NCBI GenBank assembly: GCA_028280405.1 | Contig: JANQLW010000021.1 | Coordinates: 1-64,000, forward strand | Source: Bacteroidales bacterium | GTDB lineage: Bacteria; Bacteroidota; Bacteroidia; Bacteroidales; GCA-2711565 | Direction of reading: 5' to 3' | Length of the DNA stretch: 64,000 nucleotides | Shown: positions 1,490 through 45,309 of the stretch, one piece after another | Position numbering within the stretch: position 1 is the first letter of the stretch | Layout of the letters: each line of letters begins with the position of its first letter | The notes under the pieces: generated by a model | The model's database searches: none | What the model was told of the DNA's origin: nothing | The model's input: only the letters and a program-made list of their open reading frames with translations | Translations under genes and position numbers: made by a program

Positions 1490-4400
1490 TTAAAAAGTTA
1501 ACTCGATCCCGGCCGTTATAGTCCTTAGCGGAGGCAGGCTTAGAGAGGCTCCGGCTCCCGGATCCAATCCCATATAATCAGTAAACGTTAACAGGTTTTG
1601 TCCTTGAATATAAATCCTGAAATCTTTTAGGTTTAATTTTTTCAATAGAACGTTTGAGAATCTGTATGATAATGAAAGGTTGCTTAACCGGATATAAGAC
1701 TGGTCGGTTATGGCCGCATTACTATTTCCCAAAAATCTGTATGTATTGCGAAAGGTGGTATTCGTATACTTCTGTACATCAGCAAGGTCACCGGCTTCCT
1801 GCCAACGGTCAACAACCAGAGCCGGTTGATTGCTTCTTGAACCAGGCCAGCTAAAACTCCTTAAATAACTGAAGCCTTTTTGTTTTACAAACTGAAAGTG
1901 GAAATTCAGCTCAATGTTTTTGTATCGAATAGTATTTTGCAATCCTCCAAAATAGTTTTGACTTACCTCATAAAAGCTACGGTCGTGCTGATAGGATATA
2001 CGATCATCACCATTCATATCTTCAAAAGTGTATAAACCCGTTTCCGGATCAAGACCGGTAGCGGTGAAAAGACGTGAAAGAAAAAGGGATTTCCCTATTT
2101 GGTAAACATTGGAATATCCGGAATTTTCAAAATCAGGAAACGATACTAATTTATTACGGGGTATACTGAGGTTAAAGCCGGAGTTCCATTCAAAATGAGC
2201 AGATTTTATATTGATGGTATGTAACTCAAATTCCCATCCTTTATTTTCGATAATGGCCGGTAAATTAAACGCCAGAGAATGATGTCCCGTAATTACCGGT
2301 AAAGGTAAACCGACCAGTTGATCAGAAGAACGATTTCGATACCAGCTTGTTGAAAATAGTATTCTGTTATCTATAAAACCAAGCTCCAATGCCAGTTCGA
2401 GTTTTTTATTTGTTTCCCAGGAAAAATCATCGTTGGGTAGCCTGCTGGGGATCAATCCTATTTGCTCTTGATAAGTTGATGTTCCCCAGAAGACCCTATA
2501 AGTGTCAAGGTATTGGTAATCCCCAATTTGATCGTTGCCGGTAGTCCCATAGCTGCCCCTTATCTTTCCAAAACTTAAAAAAGGGAAATTTTCCTTGATA
2601 AGATTCTCATTAGAAAAAATCCAGGCTGCTCCCACAGCTCCAAAATTAGCAAAGCGTTTATCAGGCCCAAAACGGCTGGAACCGTCCCTTCTGCCTGTCA
2701 GGTTGAGGATATAGCTGTCTTTCCAATTAAAATTTAAGCGACCGAAAATGGCATTATAGCGATATTTGGAACTAGTAGGAGATATATACAGTAAATCTGC
2801 AGCCTGTGGATTCTTCAGCAGTGCATCACTGGCAAATCCAACACCTTGTATTGTTTCACCTTCATTTGTTGTTTCCTGAAAGCTAGCTCCTGCTAAAAAC
2901 TGTATGCTGCCTTTTCCGATGGTATGGCTATATTCAATTTGCGGTTCGATGATCCATGTCTTTACCCTGTTATCACCAAATAAAGATGAGGCTCTGAATC
3001 TATGTCTAATATCCGGCCTTCTAAAGGCTTTTGGCTCCAGGCTTATTTCTTCGATTTGCGTATCGGTATAGCCCAGATCTGTTTTTGCTTTTAGGTTTTT
3101 CAGAATTTCATAATTCAAGGTCAACTTCGCAATAAACGCAGTGGTTCTTCCTTCGTACTTTTTTACCTGAAGGGCAGCCAGCGGATTCGTAAAAGTATTG
3201 TTTTCCCAATTAATATCCCCGTTTTCATCATAAAGCGCAGGGGCGTTAGGTGGTAAGGTTAGCGCATCTCTTGTAAGGTCTATGCGAGGTAATATGTTTT
3301 TATCACTTGAATAATTCGAGGAAAAGCTTAATCTAAATTTATTATTGTTTGACAAATGATTCAGGTTCATAAAGCCTGTGAATCTTTTGTAATTAAAATC
3401 TCCGGGAAAAACAGTTCCTTCGGTGTAGTAGTTGCTGCTAAGCATAAATTGTGTATTCGCATTTCCACCGGAAACAGAGAGTTGTGTGTTCGTGGTAAAG
3501 GATGCCCCCCCAATGATCTCATCCTGCCAATCGGTATAGCGGTCTTGATCCCAAACCAATAGATCAGGAGCTGAATTTGCGTTTGGTGTACGACCATCAT
3601 TTTCGTATGCCTCCAAACGCATTTCCAGGTATTGCTCCGTATTTAAAAGATCCAGCCTATTTGGAACTTTCGATATTCCACTTGTATGCTTAATAGTAAA
3701 AGTTGTTTTCCCAACTTTTCCTTTCTTTGTTGTTATAAGCACTACACCATTCGAGCCTCTTGAACCGTAAATAGCCGTGGCATCCGCATCTTTTAAGATT
3801 TCAATACTTTCGATAATAGACGGGTCTATACTATTCAGTGGATTTACGTTATTTTCTAAAATACCACTTAATTGCCCTGCAATACTATTTGAAGGATAAG
3901 GCACCCCATCAATAATATAGAGCGGAGAGTTTGCACCAATTTCTCTTCTTATACTATTAATGCCCCGTATTTGAATATCAAAGCCTCCGCCTGGCAGACC
4001 TGTTTTTTGCACAATACTAACACCGGTCATTCTACCTTGAATGGCCTGTAAAGGATTTGCAACGGGTTGTTGTTCTATTTCTTTGGCTGCTACTCTGGAG
4101 ATATTTCCGGTCTTTGTTTTCTCAGTCACCGTATAATATCCTGCATTAATAGTTACCTCCTCCAACTCAGTGGCGGCTTGTTCAAGGCTCACATTAATCG
4201 TAGTTTTGTTGCCCACTTTAATTTCCTGTTTGGCATAACCCACATAAGAAAATACCAATACTGTTTTTGAATCAGGAACTGTAATAGAATACTCTCCATC
4301 TATATTCGTGGTTATACCTTTAAATGTTCCTTTTATCATTACGGTGGCATTGGGCAAGGGTTTGCCTTCGGCGTCGGTTACTTTTCCGGTAATCACAATA

Positions 4401-4777
4401 TCCTCTTCTTTTTGTTCGATCACGATGATATTTTCGATGATTGAATAATTTAAAGGCTGGTTTTTCATACATATATCTAATACATCCTCAAGCGAAGCAT
4501 TAGATACGTTTATATCTACTTTTTTTGCTTGTTTGATCAGCCGTTCGTTGTAGAAAAACTGGTATTCGCTTTGTTTTTCGATTTCACTTAATAGTGTTTC
4601 CAGCCTGGCATTTTTCTGTGAAAGTGTTATTCCCTGGGAATACACTCCGGCCGCCATGCTAAAGTGGCAACATACAATCAATAAAAAGGCGGTTATTTTC
4701 ATGACTCTGATTGTTTGGGTCAATACTCCCTTCTGCCTTAGGCAAAAGGCCTTTTTTTGTGTAAAAAATAAATCCAT
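1490..4777 (-). CDS. SusC/RagA-type TonB-dependent outer membrane transporter with STN domain and CarboxypepD_reg-like domain
   Basis: 1095 aa; STN-like N-terminus (ITLSQKNARLETLLSEIEKQSEYQFFYNERLI), GKVTDAEGKPLPNATVMIKGTFKGITTNIDGEY, plug domain DADATAIYGSRGSNGVVLITTKKGK. Confidence 0.95.
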   Translation of the reverse strand: MDLFFTQKKAFCLRQKGVLTQTIRVMKITAFLLIVCCHFSMAAGVYSQGITLSQKNARLETLLSEIEKQSEYQFFYNERLIKQAKKVDINVSNASLEDVLDICMKNQPLNYSIIENIIVIEQKEEDIVITGKVTDAEGKPLPNATVMIKGTFKGITTNIDGEYSITVPDSKTVLVFSYVGYAKQEIKVGNKTTINVSLEQAATELEEVTINAGYYTVTEKTKTGNISRVAAKEIEQQPVANPLQAIQGRMTGVSIVQKTGLPGGGFDIQIRGINSIRREIGANSPLYIIDGVPYPSNSIAGQLSGILENNVNPLNSIDPSIIESIEILKDADATAIYGSRGSNGVVLITTKKGKVGKTTFTIKHTSGISKVPNRLDLLNTEQYLEMRLEAYENDGRTPNANSAPDLLVWDQDRYTDWQDEIIGGASFTTNTQLSVSGGNANTQFMLSSNYYTEGTVFPGDFNYKRFTGFMNLNHLSNNNKFRLSFSSNYSSDKNILPRIDLTRDALTLPPNAPALYDENGDINWENNTFTNPLAALQVKKYEGRTTAFIAKLTLNYEILKNLKAKTDLGYTDTQIEEISLEPKAFRRPDIRHRFRASSLFGDNRVKTWIIEPQIEYSHTIGKGSIQFLAGASFQETTNEGETIQGVGFASDALLKNPQAADLLYISPTSSKYRYNAIFGRLNFNWKDSYILNLTGRRDGSSRFGPDKRFANFGAVGAAWIFSNENLIKENFPFLSFGKIRGSYGTTGNDQIGDYQYLDTYRVFWGTSTYQEQIGLIPSRLPNDDFSWETNKKLELALELGFIDNRILFSTSWYRNRSSDQLVGLPLPVITGHHSLAFNLPAIIENKGWEFELHTINIKSAHFEWNSGFNLSIPRNKLVSFPDFENSGYSNVYQIGKSLFLSRLFTATGLDPETGLYTFEDMNGDDRISYQHDRSFYEVSQNYFGGLQNTIRYKNIELNFHFQFVKQKGFSYLRSFSWPGSRSNQPALVVDRWQEAGDLADVQKYTNTTFRNTYRFLGNSNAAITDQSYIRLSNLSLSYRFSNVLLKKLNLKDFRIYIQGQNLLTFTDYMGLDPGAGASLSLPPLRTITAGIELTF

Positions 4778-21298: not shown

Positions 21299-21982
21299 AT
21301 GTCAAAGCTATTCCTTGTCCCAACTCCTATTGGAAATCTTGAAGATATTACACTTCGGGCAATTAGAATATTAAAGGAAGTCGATTTAATTTTGGCAGAA
21401 GATACCAGAAAGACAGCTATATTATTAAAACATTTTGAAATTAAGAATAAACTGTTCTCCCATCATCAATTCAATGAACATAAAACTACAACTCAATTGG
21501 TAGAGCGAATAAAAAGTGGGGAAAGTATGGCATTGGTTACTGATGCGGGAACTCCTGCTATTTCTGATCCGGGCTTTTTGTTGGTGAGAGCATGTATTTC
21601 TAATGAAGTGGAAGTAGAATGTTTACCAGGACCAACAGCATTTGTCCCTGCCTTGGTCAATTCAGGCTTACCTTCTGATCATTTTGTATTTGAAGGTTTC
21701 TTGCCTGTGAAAAAAGGCCGTCAGACCAAGCTGAATGAATTAAAAGATCAAAAGTATACGATGATTTTTTATGAATCTCCACATCGGCTTTTAAAAACCT
21801 TAACTAATTTTTCAGAAATTTTCGGTGAAGAAAGAAATGCATGTGTAAATCGTGAAATTACAAAAATTCATGAAGAAAATATTCGGGGCTCATTAAAAGA
21901 AATAATTCAATATTTTAATAATAAGAATGTTAAAGGAGAAATTGTAATTATTGTTGAAGGCTCTGGTCAGAAAAATAAATAA
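21299..21982 (+). CDS. rsmI: 16S rRNA (cytidine(1402)-2'-O)-methyltransferase
   Basis: LFLVPTPIGNLEDITLRAI, ALVTDAGTPAISDPGFLLV, FYESPHRLLKTL. Confidence 0.96.
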   Translation: MSKLFLVPTPIGNLEDITLRAIRILKEVDLILAEDTRKTAILLKHFEIKNKLFSHHQFNEHKTTTQLVERIKSGESMALVTDAGTPAISDPGFLLVRACISNEVEVECLPGPTAFVPALVNSGLPSDHFVFEGFLPVKKGRQTKLNELKDQKYTMIFYESPHRLLKTLTNFSEIFGEERNACVNREITKIHEENIRGSLKEIIQYFNNKNVKGEIVIIVEGSGQKNK

Positions 21983-22090
21983 AAAATTGTCCGAAAACTG
22001 TACGATCCTGTACGAACACTTTTAAAAAGCGAACACTTTTTCTTAAAAAAATAAAAATAATTGTTCTTTAAAATCAATGATTTACAATTT

Positions 22091-22108
22091 TTGGCACGGT
22101 ATGTGTAT
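22091..22108 (+). promoter_or_regulatory. Sigma-54 (-24/-12)-like promoter TTGGCACGGTATGTGTAT
   Basis: TTGGCACG with GG, 10 nt, then GT (consensus GC) at the -12 position. Confidence 0.6.
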
Positions 22109-22116
22109 AATAATAA

Positions 22117-22317
22117 GCAACGTTAGCAAAAAAATGAAGCAAGTCAAAGAAACCTTAGGGTAATATTATTGAAGAAAGAAATTCTACGATTTGATTCATT
22201 TTAAATTGTAAAGATTCTCACAAAATTTTAGAGCGGTTTTGTGATTCATAAATTTTATGTTAGTTAAATATTTGGTGTTAAAAAAGTCCTCCTAGCCAAG
22301 GAGGACTTTTTGTTTTT
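22117..22317 (+). ncRNA. Candidate sigma-54-dependent small RNA / micro-ORF transcript
   Basis: Unit between the sigma-54-like promoter and a strong terminator; internal hairpin TCACAAAA/TTTTGTGA (22218-22244); micro-ORF MKQVKETLG* at 22134-22163. Confidence 0.45.
22281..22317 (+). terminator. Rho-independent terminator
   Basis: AAAAAGTCCTCCT AGCCA AGGAGGACTTTTT (13-bp perfect stem) then TGTTTTT. Confidence 0.88.
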
Positions 22318-22345
22318 ATGCATATCTTAGATCATATTTTAAAAT

Positions 22346-22768
22346 ATGATGTACCAGTATCCCTATCCAAGACCATCCGTAACTGTTGATATTATTGTTT
22401 TTGACCGGAAAAAAGAAAATGTACTCCTGATCGAGCGGAAAAATGAACCTTTTAAAAATTCCTGGGCTTTGCCTGGAGGATTTGTAGATAAGGATGAAGC
22501 TTTGGATAAAGCTGCTTATCGTGAGCTTGAGGAAGAAACGGGAATTAGAAGTATCAACTTAAAACAGTTTTATACTTTTGGAAATCCGGGAAGGGATCCA
22601 CGGGGGCATACCGTTTCAATTGTATACTGGGGAATTATACAGAATATAAAACAGGTGAGAGCCGGAGATGATGCCCTAAATACGAAATGGTTTTCTATAA
22701 CAGTATTACCCAAACTTGCCTTTGATCATCTTGATATTTTAAACATTGCTATTGAGGAACTTATTTAG
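22346..22768 (+). CDS. NUDIX hydrolase
   Basis: Nudix box GGFVDKDEALDKAAYRELEEETGI. Confidence 0.95.
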   Translation: MMYQYPYPRPSVTVDIIVFDRKKENVLLIERKNEPFKNSWALPGGFVDKDEALDKAAYRELEEETGIRSINLKQFYTFGNPGRDPRGHTVSIVYWGIIQNIKQVRAGDDALNTKWFSITVLPKLAFDHLDILNIAIEELI

Positions 22769-43857: not shown

Positions 43858-45309
43858 TTATAATTCCTTGCGAAGACGCGCAACAGGAATGCTTAATTGT
43901 TCACGGTACTTAGCTACCGTTCTGCGGGCAATTGAATAACCTTTTTCCTTCAAAATATTGGTTAATTGCTCGTCTGTAAGTGGTTTGCTCTTATCTTCTG
44001 CATCTATACAATCGCTTAAAATTTTCTTTATTTCACGCGTAGAAACTTCCTCACCACTTTCAGTAGTCATGGATTCGGAGAAAAAGCTTTTAAGTAAAAA
44101 AGTGCCAAAAGGTGTTTGAACATACTTGCTATTAGCAACTCTTGAAATTGTTGAAATATCCAGATTAACGATTTCAGCAATATCTTTCAGAATCATTGGT
44201 TTCAGATTCGTTTCATCTCCGGTGAGGAAATAATCAAACTGATAATTCATAATTGCATTCATCGTATAATATAAAGTATTCTGACGTTGTTTGATTGCAT
44301 CTATAAACCACTTGGCAGAATCTATTTTTTGTTTTACAAACATAAAGGCATCTTTTTGCTGTTTGGTTTTTTTCCCTTCAGCATAAGATTCCAGCATATC
44401 TGTATAAGTTCTGCTCAAATGTAATTCGGGAGTGTTTTTAGAGTTCAGGCTTAACTCTAAACTCCCATTATTATTATGAATGATAAAATCAGGGATTATG
44501 TAGTGATTTGTTTTAGCCGATTCACTTAATGAATTTCCTGGTTTAGGGTTTAATTTAAGAATTTCATCAATAGCCTCTTTTAATTCGTCTTCTGTAGAAT
44601 CCGAACGCTTGATGATTTTCTCATAATGCTTTTTGGTAAATTCATTAAAATAACGATCAATGATCAACATTGCCAGTTTAATACTGGGCTTTTCCTGATC
44701 TTCTTTTCTAAGTTGAATCAGTAAACATTCCTGTAGATTTCTGGCACCTACACCTGCAGGATCAAACTCCTGAATGATTGAAAGGATCTTGAAAATTTCA
44801 TCTTTATCTGTAGAAATATTTTGGGTAAATGCCAGGTCATCTACCATCGCTTCTATTCCGCGCTGTAAATAACCACTATCATCAAGGTTCCCAATAATAG
44901 TTAGCGCGATATCATATTCTTTTTCACTCAGCTTTCTTAACCCCAGTTGATTAATTAATAAATCATGAAAAGTGGCACCACTTACAAAGGGGATTTCTTT
45001 TCTTTCATCATCCGAGCTGTAATTATTGGTAGAAAGCTTATAAGAAGGTATATCATCTTCATCCAGATAATCCGCTAAATCAAATTCATCATCCTTGTTG
45101 TCATATTCTTCGGTTTCAGCCTGTTCATTGTCAAAATCATCTTCTACCGTTTCAATATCCCCTGATTCTTCCAAAGCAGGATTTTCTTCAATTTCCTGCT
45201 TTATTCTTTGTTCCAGAGCTACTGATGGAATCTGCAACAATTTCATCAGCAAAATTTGCTGAGGAGAAAGTTTTTGTAAAAGCTTTTGTTGCAGTTTTTG
45301 ATTTAACAT
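43858..45309 (-). CDS. rpoN: RNA polymerase sigma-54 factor
   Basis: MLNQKLQQKLLQKLSPQQILLMKLLQIPSVALEQRIKQEIEENPALEE; C-terminal IARRTVAKYREQLSIPVARLRKEL (RpoN box). Confidence 0.97.
   Translation of the reverse strand: MLNQKLQQKLLQKLSPQQILLMKLLQIPSVALEQRIKQEIEENPALEESGDIETVEDDFDNEQAETEEYDNKDDEFDLADYLDEDDIPSYKLSTNNYSSDDERKEIPFVSGATFHDLLINQLGLRKLSEKEYDIALTIIGNLDDSGYLQRGIEAMVDDLAFTQNISTDKDEIFKILSIIQEFDPAGVGARNLQECLLIQLRKEDQEKPSIKLAMLIIDRYFNEFTKKHYEKIIKRSDSTEDELKEAIDEILKLNPKPGNSLSESAKTNHYIIPDFIIHNNNGSLELSLNSKNTPELHLSRTYTDMLESYAEGKKTKQQKDAFMFVKQKIDSAKWFIDAIKQRQNTLYYTMNAIMNYQFDYFLTGDETNLKPMILKDIAEIVNLDISTISRVANSKYVQTPFGTFLLKSFFSESMTTESGEEVSTREIKKILSDCIDAEDKSKPLTDEQLTNILKEKGYSIARRTVAKYREQLSIPVARLRKEL

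Follow-up and report, generated by a model that had tools for sequence, protein, structure and literature searches.

A putative sigma-54-type small RNA beside rsmI in Bacteroidales and its predicted pairing with the start regions of TonB-dependent receptor mRNAs

The gap between rsmI and a NUDIX hydrolase gene in a Bacteroidales genome holds a unit which, at a probability of roughly two in three (about 0.68), is a trans-acting small RNA (sRNA) of ~200 nt, controlled by sigma-54 and an enhancer-binding protein (EBP), pairing with the starts of TonB-dependent receptor mRNAs and derived from an mRNA 3'UTR. The unit was analysed within a 64,000-nt stretch of one contig, referred to here as the window. 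An initial annotation had described repeats, a promoter box, a hairpin, a micro-ORF and a 13-bp terminator stem, all of which are found in the gap, and had guessed at either a sigma-54/EBP-dependent sRNA or a micro-peptide. The former guess gains support from a dyad, a TGG-N10-G box, a seed and a terminator that recur across families, and from the presence of the dyad at an EBP locus.

Layout and conservation of the unit

The features of the unit and of its surroundings in the window are as follows.

21299..21982, + strand: rsmI, the upstream neighbour, with synteny kept across families
21999..22014, + strand: upstream enhancer dyad TGTACGATCCTGTACG (lineage consensus TGTnCG-N4-YGnACA), found in relatives and at the EBP locus
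22013-22022 and 22030-22039, + strand: tandem CGAACACTTT words, putative further enhancer half-sites, kept in relatives as [CT]GAACAC(TTT)
22091..22106, + strand: sigma-54-type -24/-12 promoter TTGGCACGGTATGTGT, with GG at 22093-22094 and G at 22105
22118..22316, + strand: predicted sRNA transcript, devoid of any conserved ORF, its start placed 26 nt past the T of TGG
22134..22163, + strand: micro-ORF MKQVKETLG, judged not functional, conserved in none of four genus relatives
22218..22244, + strand: hairpin with arms TCACAAAA (22218-22225) and TTTTGTGA (22237-22244), nearly invariant in five genus members
22245..22281, + strand: seed region TTCATAAATTTTATGTTAGTTAAATATTTGGTGTTAA, antisense to SusC/TBDR start regions
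22257-22277, + strand: core ATGTTAGTTAAATATTTGGTG within the seed, identical in 5/5 genus members with the unit
22281..22316, + strand: intrinsic terminator, a 13-bp stem (22281-22311) and a T-run
22346..22768, + strand: NUDIX hydrolase gene, next after the unit in most of the genus and in part of family f103
43858..45309, - strand: rpoN (sigma-54), identified by eye from the ORF sequence, in line with the earlier statement that this gene lies within the window
1490..4777, - strand: SusC-type TonB-dependent receptor, a predicted target (duplex -20.4 vs -11.5 for shuffles, z -4.4)

The 64-kb window contains just two copies of the CGAACACTTT word, in tandem, starting at 22013 and 22030. RNA of the length of the transcript has a better fold than 199 of its 200 shuffles, which is moderately unusual (z -3.0), and the seed, situated ~130 nt into the predicted RNA and adjoining its 3' terminator, is moderately accessible in the folded molecule (mean pairing probability 0.48 over 22243-22281). 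The RNA element is present as a single copy in its own genome (G000). A search of Rfam with the window and eight loci gave no family at the gathering score; the strongest of the sub-threshold matches, Phe_leader at 22278-22360 on the minus strand (30.6 bits vs a cut-off of 55), was caused by the terminator stem and was set aside.

A DNA search over 60 relatives, all genomes compared being MAGs, located the unit in four of the five other members of the genus (G001-G004), in each case in the gap after rsmI and, in G001-G003, before the NUDIX gene; the 71% complete genome of G005 gave no match in this search. The cassette shared within the genus consists of the dyad TGTnCG-N4-YGnACA with CGAACAC, a TGGCAY-N7-G box, the stretch ATGTTAGTTAAAYATTnnGTG(CA) and then the terminator. 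Its invariant alignment blocks are the GTAC words, CGAACAC, TGGCA, TCACAAA...TTTTGTGATT and, above all, ATGTTAGTTAAATATTTGGTG, the most conserved part of the unit, which the initial annotation did not describe. The transcript body and the terminator stems have diverged in sequence while this core stays invariant, and a stem-loop followed by a T-rich tail is retained in 15/15 cassettes despite the divergence of the stems. Conservation of promoter and terminator between rsmI and the next gene, which had been named earlier as a point to check in relatives, extends across families as well. The conservation of the cassette goes well beyond chance.

Promoter, enhancer dyad and candidate activator

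The promoter box is not significant by itself, as two-mismatch matches to TGGCACG-N4-TTGC number 10 in the window vs 6.7 expected; it was accepted as real because of its conservation in relatives rather than because of window statistics. TGGCA and a G at N10 spacing are invariant in 19/19 cassettes, a count slightly favoured by choice, since the sites were selected by TGGCAY alone and the exclusions comprised L258 (spacing broken), second TGGCAY words in L174, L176, L246 and L247, and also L256 and L261, though both keep the G. The same arrangement is invariant in 7/7 promoters of an exporter gene described below. The base after the invariant G, at the position of the -12 C, is T in seven of the 19 cassettes, C in seven, A in four and G in one, and T again in 5/7 exporter promoters. 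The GT at -12, which had been taken as a reason to doubt the strength of the promoter, is thus normal for the lineage, and that doubt is removed; the degeneracy of the C relative to the classical sigma-54 consensus GG-N10-GC nevertheless counts against the main reading. The dyad and the CGAACAC words are conserved ~50-95 bp upstream of the promoter. Among 14 cassettes with the RNA element (complete save L248, L171 and duplicates), the TGT-N10-ACA dyad is present in 12, and those of G000 and L176 are each one mismatch off. A search of four genus genomes with CGAACA-N40-70-TTTGGCA returned 23 matches vs 10 with a reversed control, and therefore no wider regulon could be called.

The own genome codes for nine full-length EBPs, and the dyad occurs at the locus of one of them, P0001, while the other eight are without it. 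This protein is a response-regulator EBP encoded beside a histidine kinase at L210 (G000:C53), outside the window. Divergent from it is an HlyD/MFP-type exporter gene, whose promoter carries TGGCACAAATTTGGC. Orthologues of P0001, 78-89% identical, were found in ten other genomes, the next paralogues reaching at most 57-58%. The dyad lies upstream of the EBP in 9/9 orthologue genomes with upstream sequence (G344, where the contig ends at the EBP, is not among the nine), and the exporter with a TGG-N10-G promoter is present in seven of these nine; G119 and G176 keep the dyad and have no exporter. The dyad of the P0001 locus, TGTTCGTATnTGTACA, is conserved in relatives, and even loci lacking the exporter (L276, L280) retain an altered form of it upstream of the EBP. 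P0001 is a candidate activator of the unit because its own locus, unlike those of the other eight EBPs, bears the same dyad. This choice of EBP is a guess based on the identity of the motif.

Antisense complementarity to receptor start regions

Complementarity in the own genome was assessed against the start regions of 87 Plug-domain genes, the start codon of each being assigned to the first ATG of its frame. With a 46-nt seed, the boundaries of which, like those of the other seeds, were set by eye after the conservation had been seen, the 87 starts gave a mean of -17.8 kcal/mol, beating 100 of 100 dinucleotide shuffles (-13.95 kcal/mol, sd 0.61). A 37-nt seed gave a mean z of -1.84 for the 87 receptors vs -0.13 for 49 ORFs taken from the one 64-kb window and including one SusC gene (p 3.5e-8); the receptors are not independent in this comparison, since they are paralogues and 20/87 of them, vs 0/49 window ORFs, share AAAUUUAUGAA at the start codon. 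The signal is located in 54 SusC receptors with a long N-terminus (STN-type), whose start regions have a z of -2.50, compared with -0.11 within the coding parts of the same genes (p 2e-12) and -0.63 for sequence further upstream (p 1e-8). The remaining 33 receptors show little signal (p 0.08). The best other match of the covariance model R1, built on the RNA element, in this genome (E 0.0027) is likewise antisense, immediately upstream of a SusC-type receptor's start codon. The 21-nt core alone gives a weaker difference (p 0.005), so that part of the signal in G000 depends on UUCAUAAAUUU, which is present in its seed, absent in relatives and able to pair with AAAUUUAUGAA. The 2-nt insertion that makes UUCAUAAAUUU could be an adaptation to receptor expansion. 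Plug-domain receptors number 87 in G000 vs 33 in G002 of the same genus.

As a class, the receptors of G002 show no significant complementarity (p 0.10), nor do those of G206 (family f103) and G344 (family f84) with seeds taken from their own 3'UTRs (p 0.82 and 0.19, respectively). Broad targeting of SusC genes may therefore be special to G000. One orthologous receptor in G206 and G344, termed here MLRN-TBDR (MLRNLLLTxGIVL..., frames of 1239 and 1246 aa), is nonetheless far out of line. Its duplex reaches -33.2 kcal/mol with z -7.6 in G206 and -32.5 kcal/mol with z -6.1 in G344, while the next best receptors with the same seeds and genomes have z of about +0.1 and -0.9. The flank outside the palindromic core covaries between seed and MLRN-TBDR, with A-U pairs in f103 and G-C pairs in f84, the sequences concerned being TAGTTTTATG with CATAAAACTA in f84 and TTAATTTTATG with CATAAAATTAT in f103.

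Two further observations concern relatives. A second small RNA of f103 (L062, L064 and L067, in G726, G290 and G206, respectively) has an TGGCAYGAAATT-type box (TGGCAY), ATGTTAGTTRAACATTGTGCAAAA and a terminator, and is antisense to the MLRN-TBDR mRNA. In G001, an 18-nt perfect antisense match of the core (L075, G001:C47:40148-40165), one of two equal best other matches in that genome (E 0.12), is positioned just before the start of a small secreted protein, MKKLLMTIICVLIVISGFSQ....

Parent mRNA, rival readings and known systems

The core was searched over the order, together with covariance model R1. The RNA element and its terminator were also found in families f84 and f103, where the stop codon of a 154-182-aa ORF lies about 7-11 nt ahead of the element. 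This ORF codes for a small secreted protein that has a TonB-C-like domain and begins with a stretch resembling a signal peptide; in f84 its end, TGA stop included, is formed by the TTTTGTGA strand. Family f115 likewise has this 3' element, at the same distance of about 7-11 nt behind a TonB-C-like stop codon, the ORF adjoining rsmI. The same dyad and TGGCAY box lie upstream of the TonB-C-like ORF, with rsmI adjacent in most loci. The match of the parent protein to PF03544 (Pfam TonB_C) is borderline (E 4e-5, 24.4 bits vs a cut-off of 24.6); an AlphaFold2 model computed for one member follows the order of the TonB C-terminal fold (pLDDT about 82-91 for residues 71-130), and Foldseek returns TonB CTDs as its leading matches (best E 0.0076). 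When 324 genomes were searched with a profile of the protein, it turned up in further families, including f76, f111, f68 and f86, where several loci have rsmI and/or GAACACTTTT with TTGGCA upstream of the gene. At E<=1e-5 the profile search detected no homologue in G000, G001 or G004, and in G002 there is a weak match only, within a 544-aa frame. The distance from the -24 box to the element is about 166-170 nt in the genus vs 510-607 nt in the other families. Presence of the element across the class was rejected, the weak covariance-model matches outside the order (L030-L050) having no such context and looking like chance.

A parsimonious history would thus begin with a TonB-C gene under a sigma-54-type promoter at rsmI, bearing an sRNA element in its 3'UTR, with the ORF subsequently lost in the genus of the window. 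Since the genus has lost the ORF and kept the promoter and the 3' part, an sRNA stemming from an mRNA 3'UTR is the best reading of the unit.

This same history could have left a mere relic, in which promoter and 3'UTR persist, perhaps transcribed, without a function of their own; the presence of the ORF in sister families and its absence here speak for this reading. Such an outcome is quite improbable, because a relic is not expected to keep both a core that is invariant in five genus members, though body and terminator stems have diverged, and a seed antisense to receptor starts in its own genome. It is unlikely, too, that the 3' element is structural or protein-binding (a stability element or an RNA-chaperone site) and that its antisense matches come from the core being palindromic. 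The core contains ATGTT-N5-AACAT, which can form a 5-bp hairpin and would match both strands, and this weak palindrome, which could alone give antisense matches, does count against the main reading. The complementarity, however, reaches the non-palindromic flanks and covaries there in f84 and f103, the second RNA of f103 is antisense over about 40 nt with the start codon included, and the best matches lie at start codons of exported proteins.

The remaining alternatives concern the product and the promoter. A micropeptide, either MKQVKETLG, as the initial annotation had suggested, or MLVKYLV from the conserved core, is extremely improbable: both frames are open in the window and MLVKYLV reads through in genus members, yet MKQVKETLG is absent from relatives and the core frame of G290 meets a TAG after five codons (ATG TTA GTT AAA CAT TAG) with the RNA sequence kept. 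Use of the promoter by the primary sigma factor of Bacteroidota (TTTG/TAnnTTTG type) would find some encouragement in a TTTG that overlaps the start of the box and in the AT-rich sequence after it. This is very unlikely, given that a suitably spaced TAnnTTTG and a conserved second box are both missing, that invariance across the 19 cassettes is confined to TGGCA and the G at N10, and that enhancer dyads lie upstream.

As a sigma-54-controlled sRNA, the unit would work in the following manner. A phosphorylated NtrC-type EBP, for which P0001 is the candidate, would bind the dyads at 21999-22039 and activate sigma-54 RNA polymerase at 22091-22106, and the resulting RNA would end at the terminator at 22281-22316. 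Its seed (22245-22281) would pair with mRNAs of TonB-dependent receptors at their translation-initiation regions, those of SusC-type receptors in G000 and that of the single MLRN-TBDR in sister families. Pairing would most likely block translation of the receptors, so that outer-membrane transporters go down while the same regulator turns the exporter on. The RNA itself would descend from the 3'UTR of the gene for the small secreted TonB-C-domain protein, of which the genus retains promoter, seed and terminator but not the ORF. The sequences themselves show the conservation, the arrangement of promoter and dyads, the terminator, the dyad in common with the EBP locus, the antisense complementarity and the missing ORF; expression, dependence on RpoN and the EBP, and repression as the direction of the effect are all inferred. 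A broader and tentative idea, possible rather than probable, is that of a sigma-54 envelope-stress module, in which one EBP would switch on an exporter and, at the rsmI locus, a periplasmic protein consisting of TonB-C only along with an sRNA of the same mRNA, the latter two both aimed at TonB-dependent transporters. The protein would perhaps compete with TonB and the RNA would block new receptor synthesis; one genus would have dropped the protein, leaving the RNA to take over, and one species would have widened the targets to dozens of SusC mRNAs.

In enterobacteria, the sigma-E-dependent sRNAs RybB, MicA and MicL turn down outer-membrane proteins under an envelope-stress-type regulator, and MicL derives from the 3' end of the cutC mRNA. 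The logic proposed here, from such a regulator through an sRNA to lower outer-membrane proteins, is similar, yet the present case involves sigma-54 with an NtrC-type EBP in place of an ECF sigma factor, another phylum and TonB-dependent receptors as targets; moreover, the genus of the window no longer has the parent ORF. Sigma-54-dependent sRNAs of Gammaproteobacteria, namely Qrr, GlmY/GlmZ and CrcZ, are encoded behind a -24/-12 promoter that is itself preceded by EBP sites, a layout which the unit, with its -24/-12-type box and dyads, resembles; their targets and regulators differ, and no sequence relation is claimed.

In Bacteroides thetaiotaomicron, the FopS/GibS sRNAs pair next to susC-type start codons and block translation, the predicted targets of FopS being enriched in outer-membrane proteins (PMC11697453). 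The unit resembles them in its terminator, its Bacteroidales host and its pairing at susC-type starts, here predicted from sequence alone. FopS, however, forms a family of 14 copies that have canonical sigma-ABfr promoters and carry the seed at their 5' end (PMC11697453), whereas the RNA in the window is single-copy at a fixed rsmI locus, with a seed beside the 3' terminator, a sigma-54/EBP-type promoter and a putative 3'UTR origin. It may represent, beside FopS, a second and independent route by which Bacteroidales could shut down SusC transporters. The loci also form a readable evolutionary series, in which loss of the coding part would have turned an mRNA bearing a regulatory 3'UTR into a free-standing sRNA, with promoter and locus constant.

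Little was found in the literature on the function of sigma-54 in Bacteroidota. For a sigma-54 regulon of this phylum, the present analysis puts forward a candidate EBP binding site, a candidate sRNA and the mRNAs it may target. Control of TonB (COG0810) by sigma-54 has been predicted in Flavobacteriia and was called unconfirmed by the survey in question (PMC12316311). Both cases have a sigma-54-type promoter before TonB-domain genes; the one described here differs in its short secreted TonB-C-only protein beside rsmI, its dyads, its candidate EBP and its 3'UTR sRNA element. Short secreted TonB-C-like proteins (L246-L270) are encoded in many Bacteroidales families, several of them with CGAACACTTTT and TTGGCA upstream.
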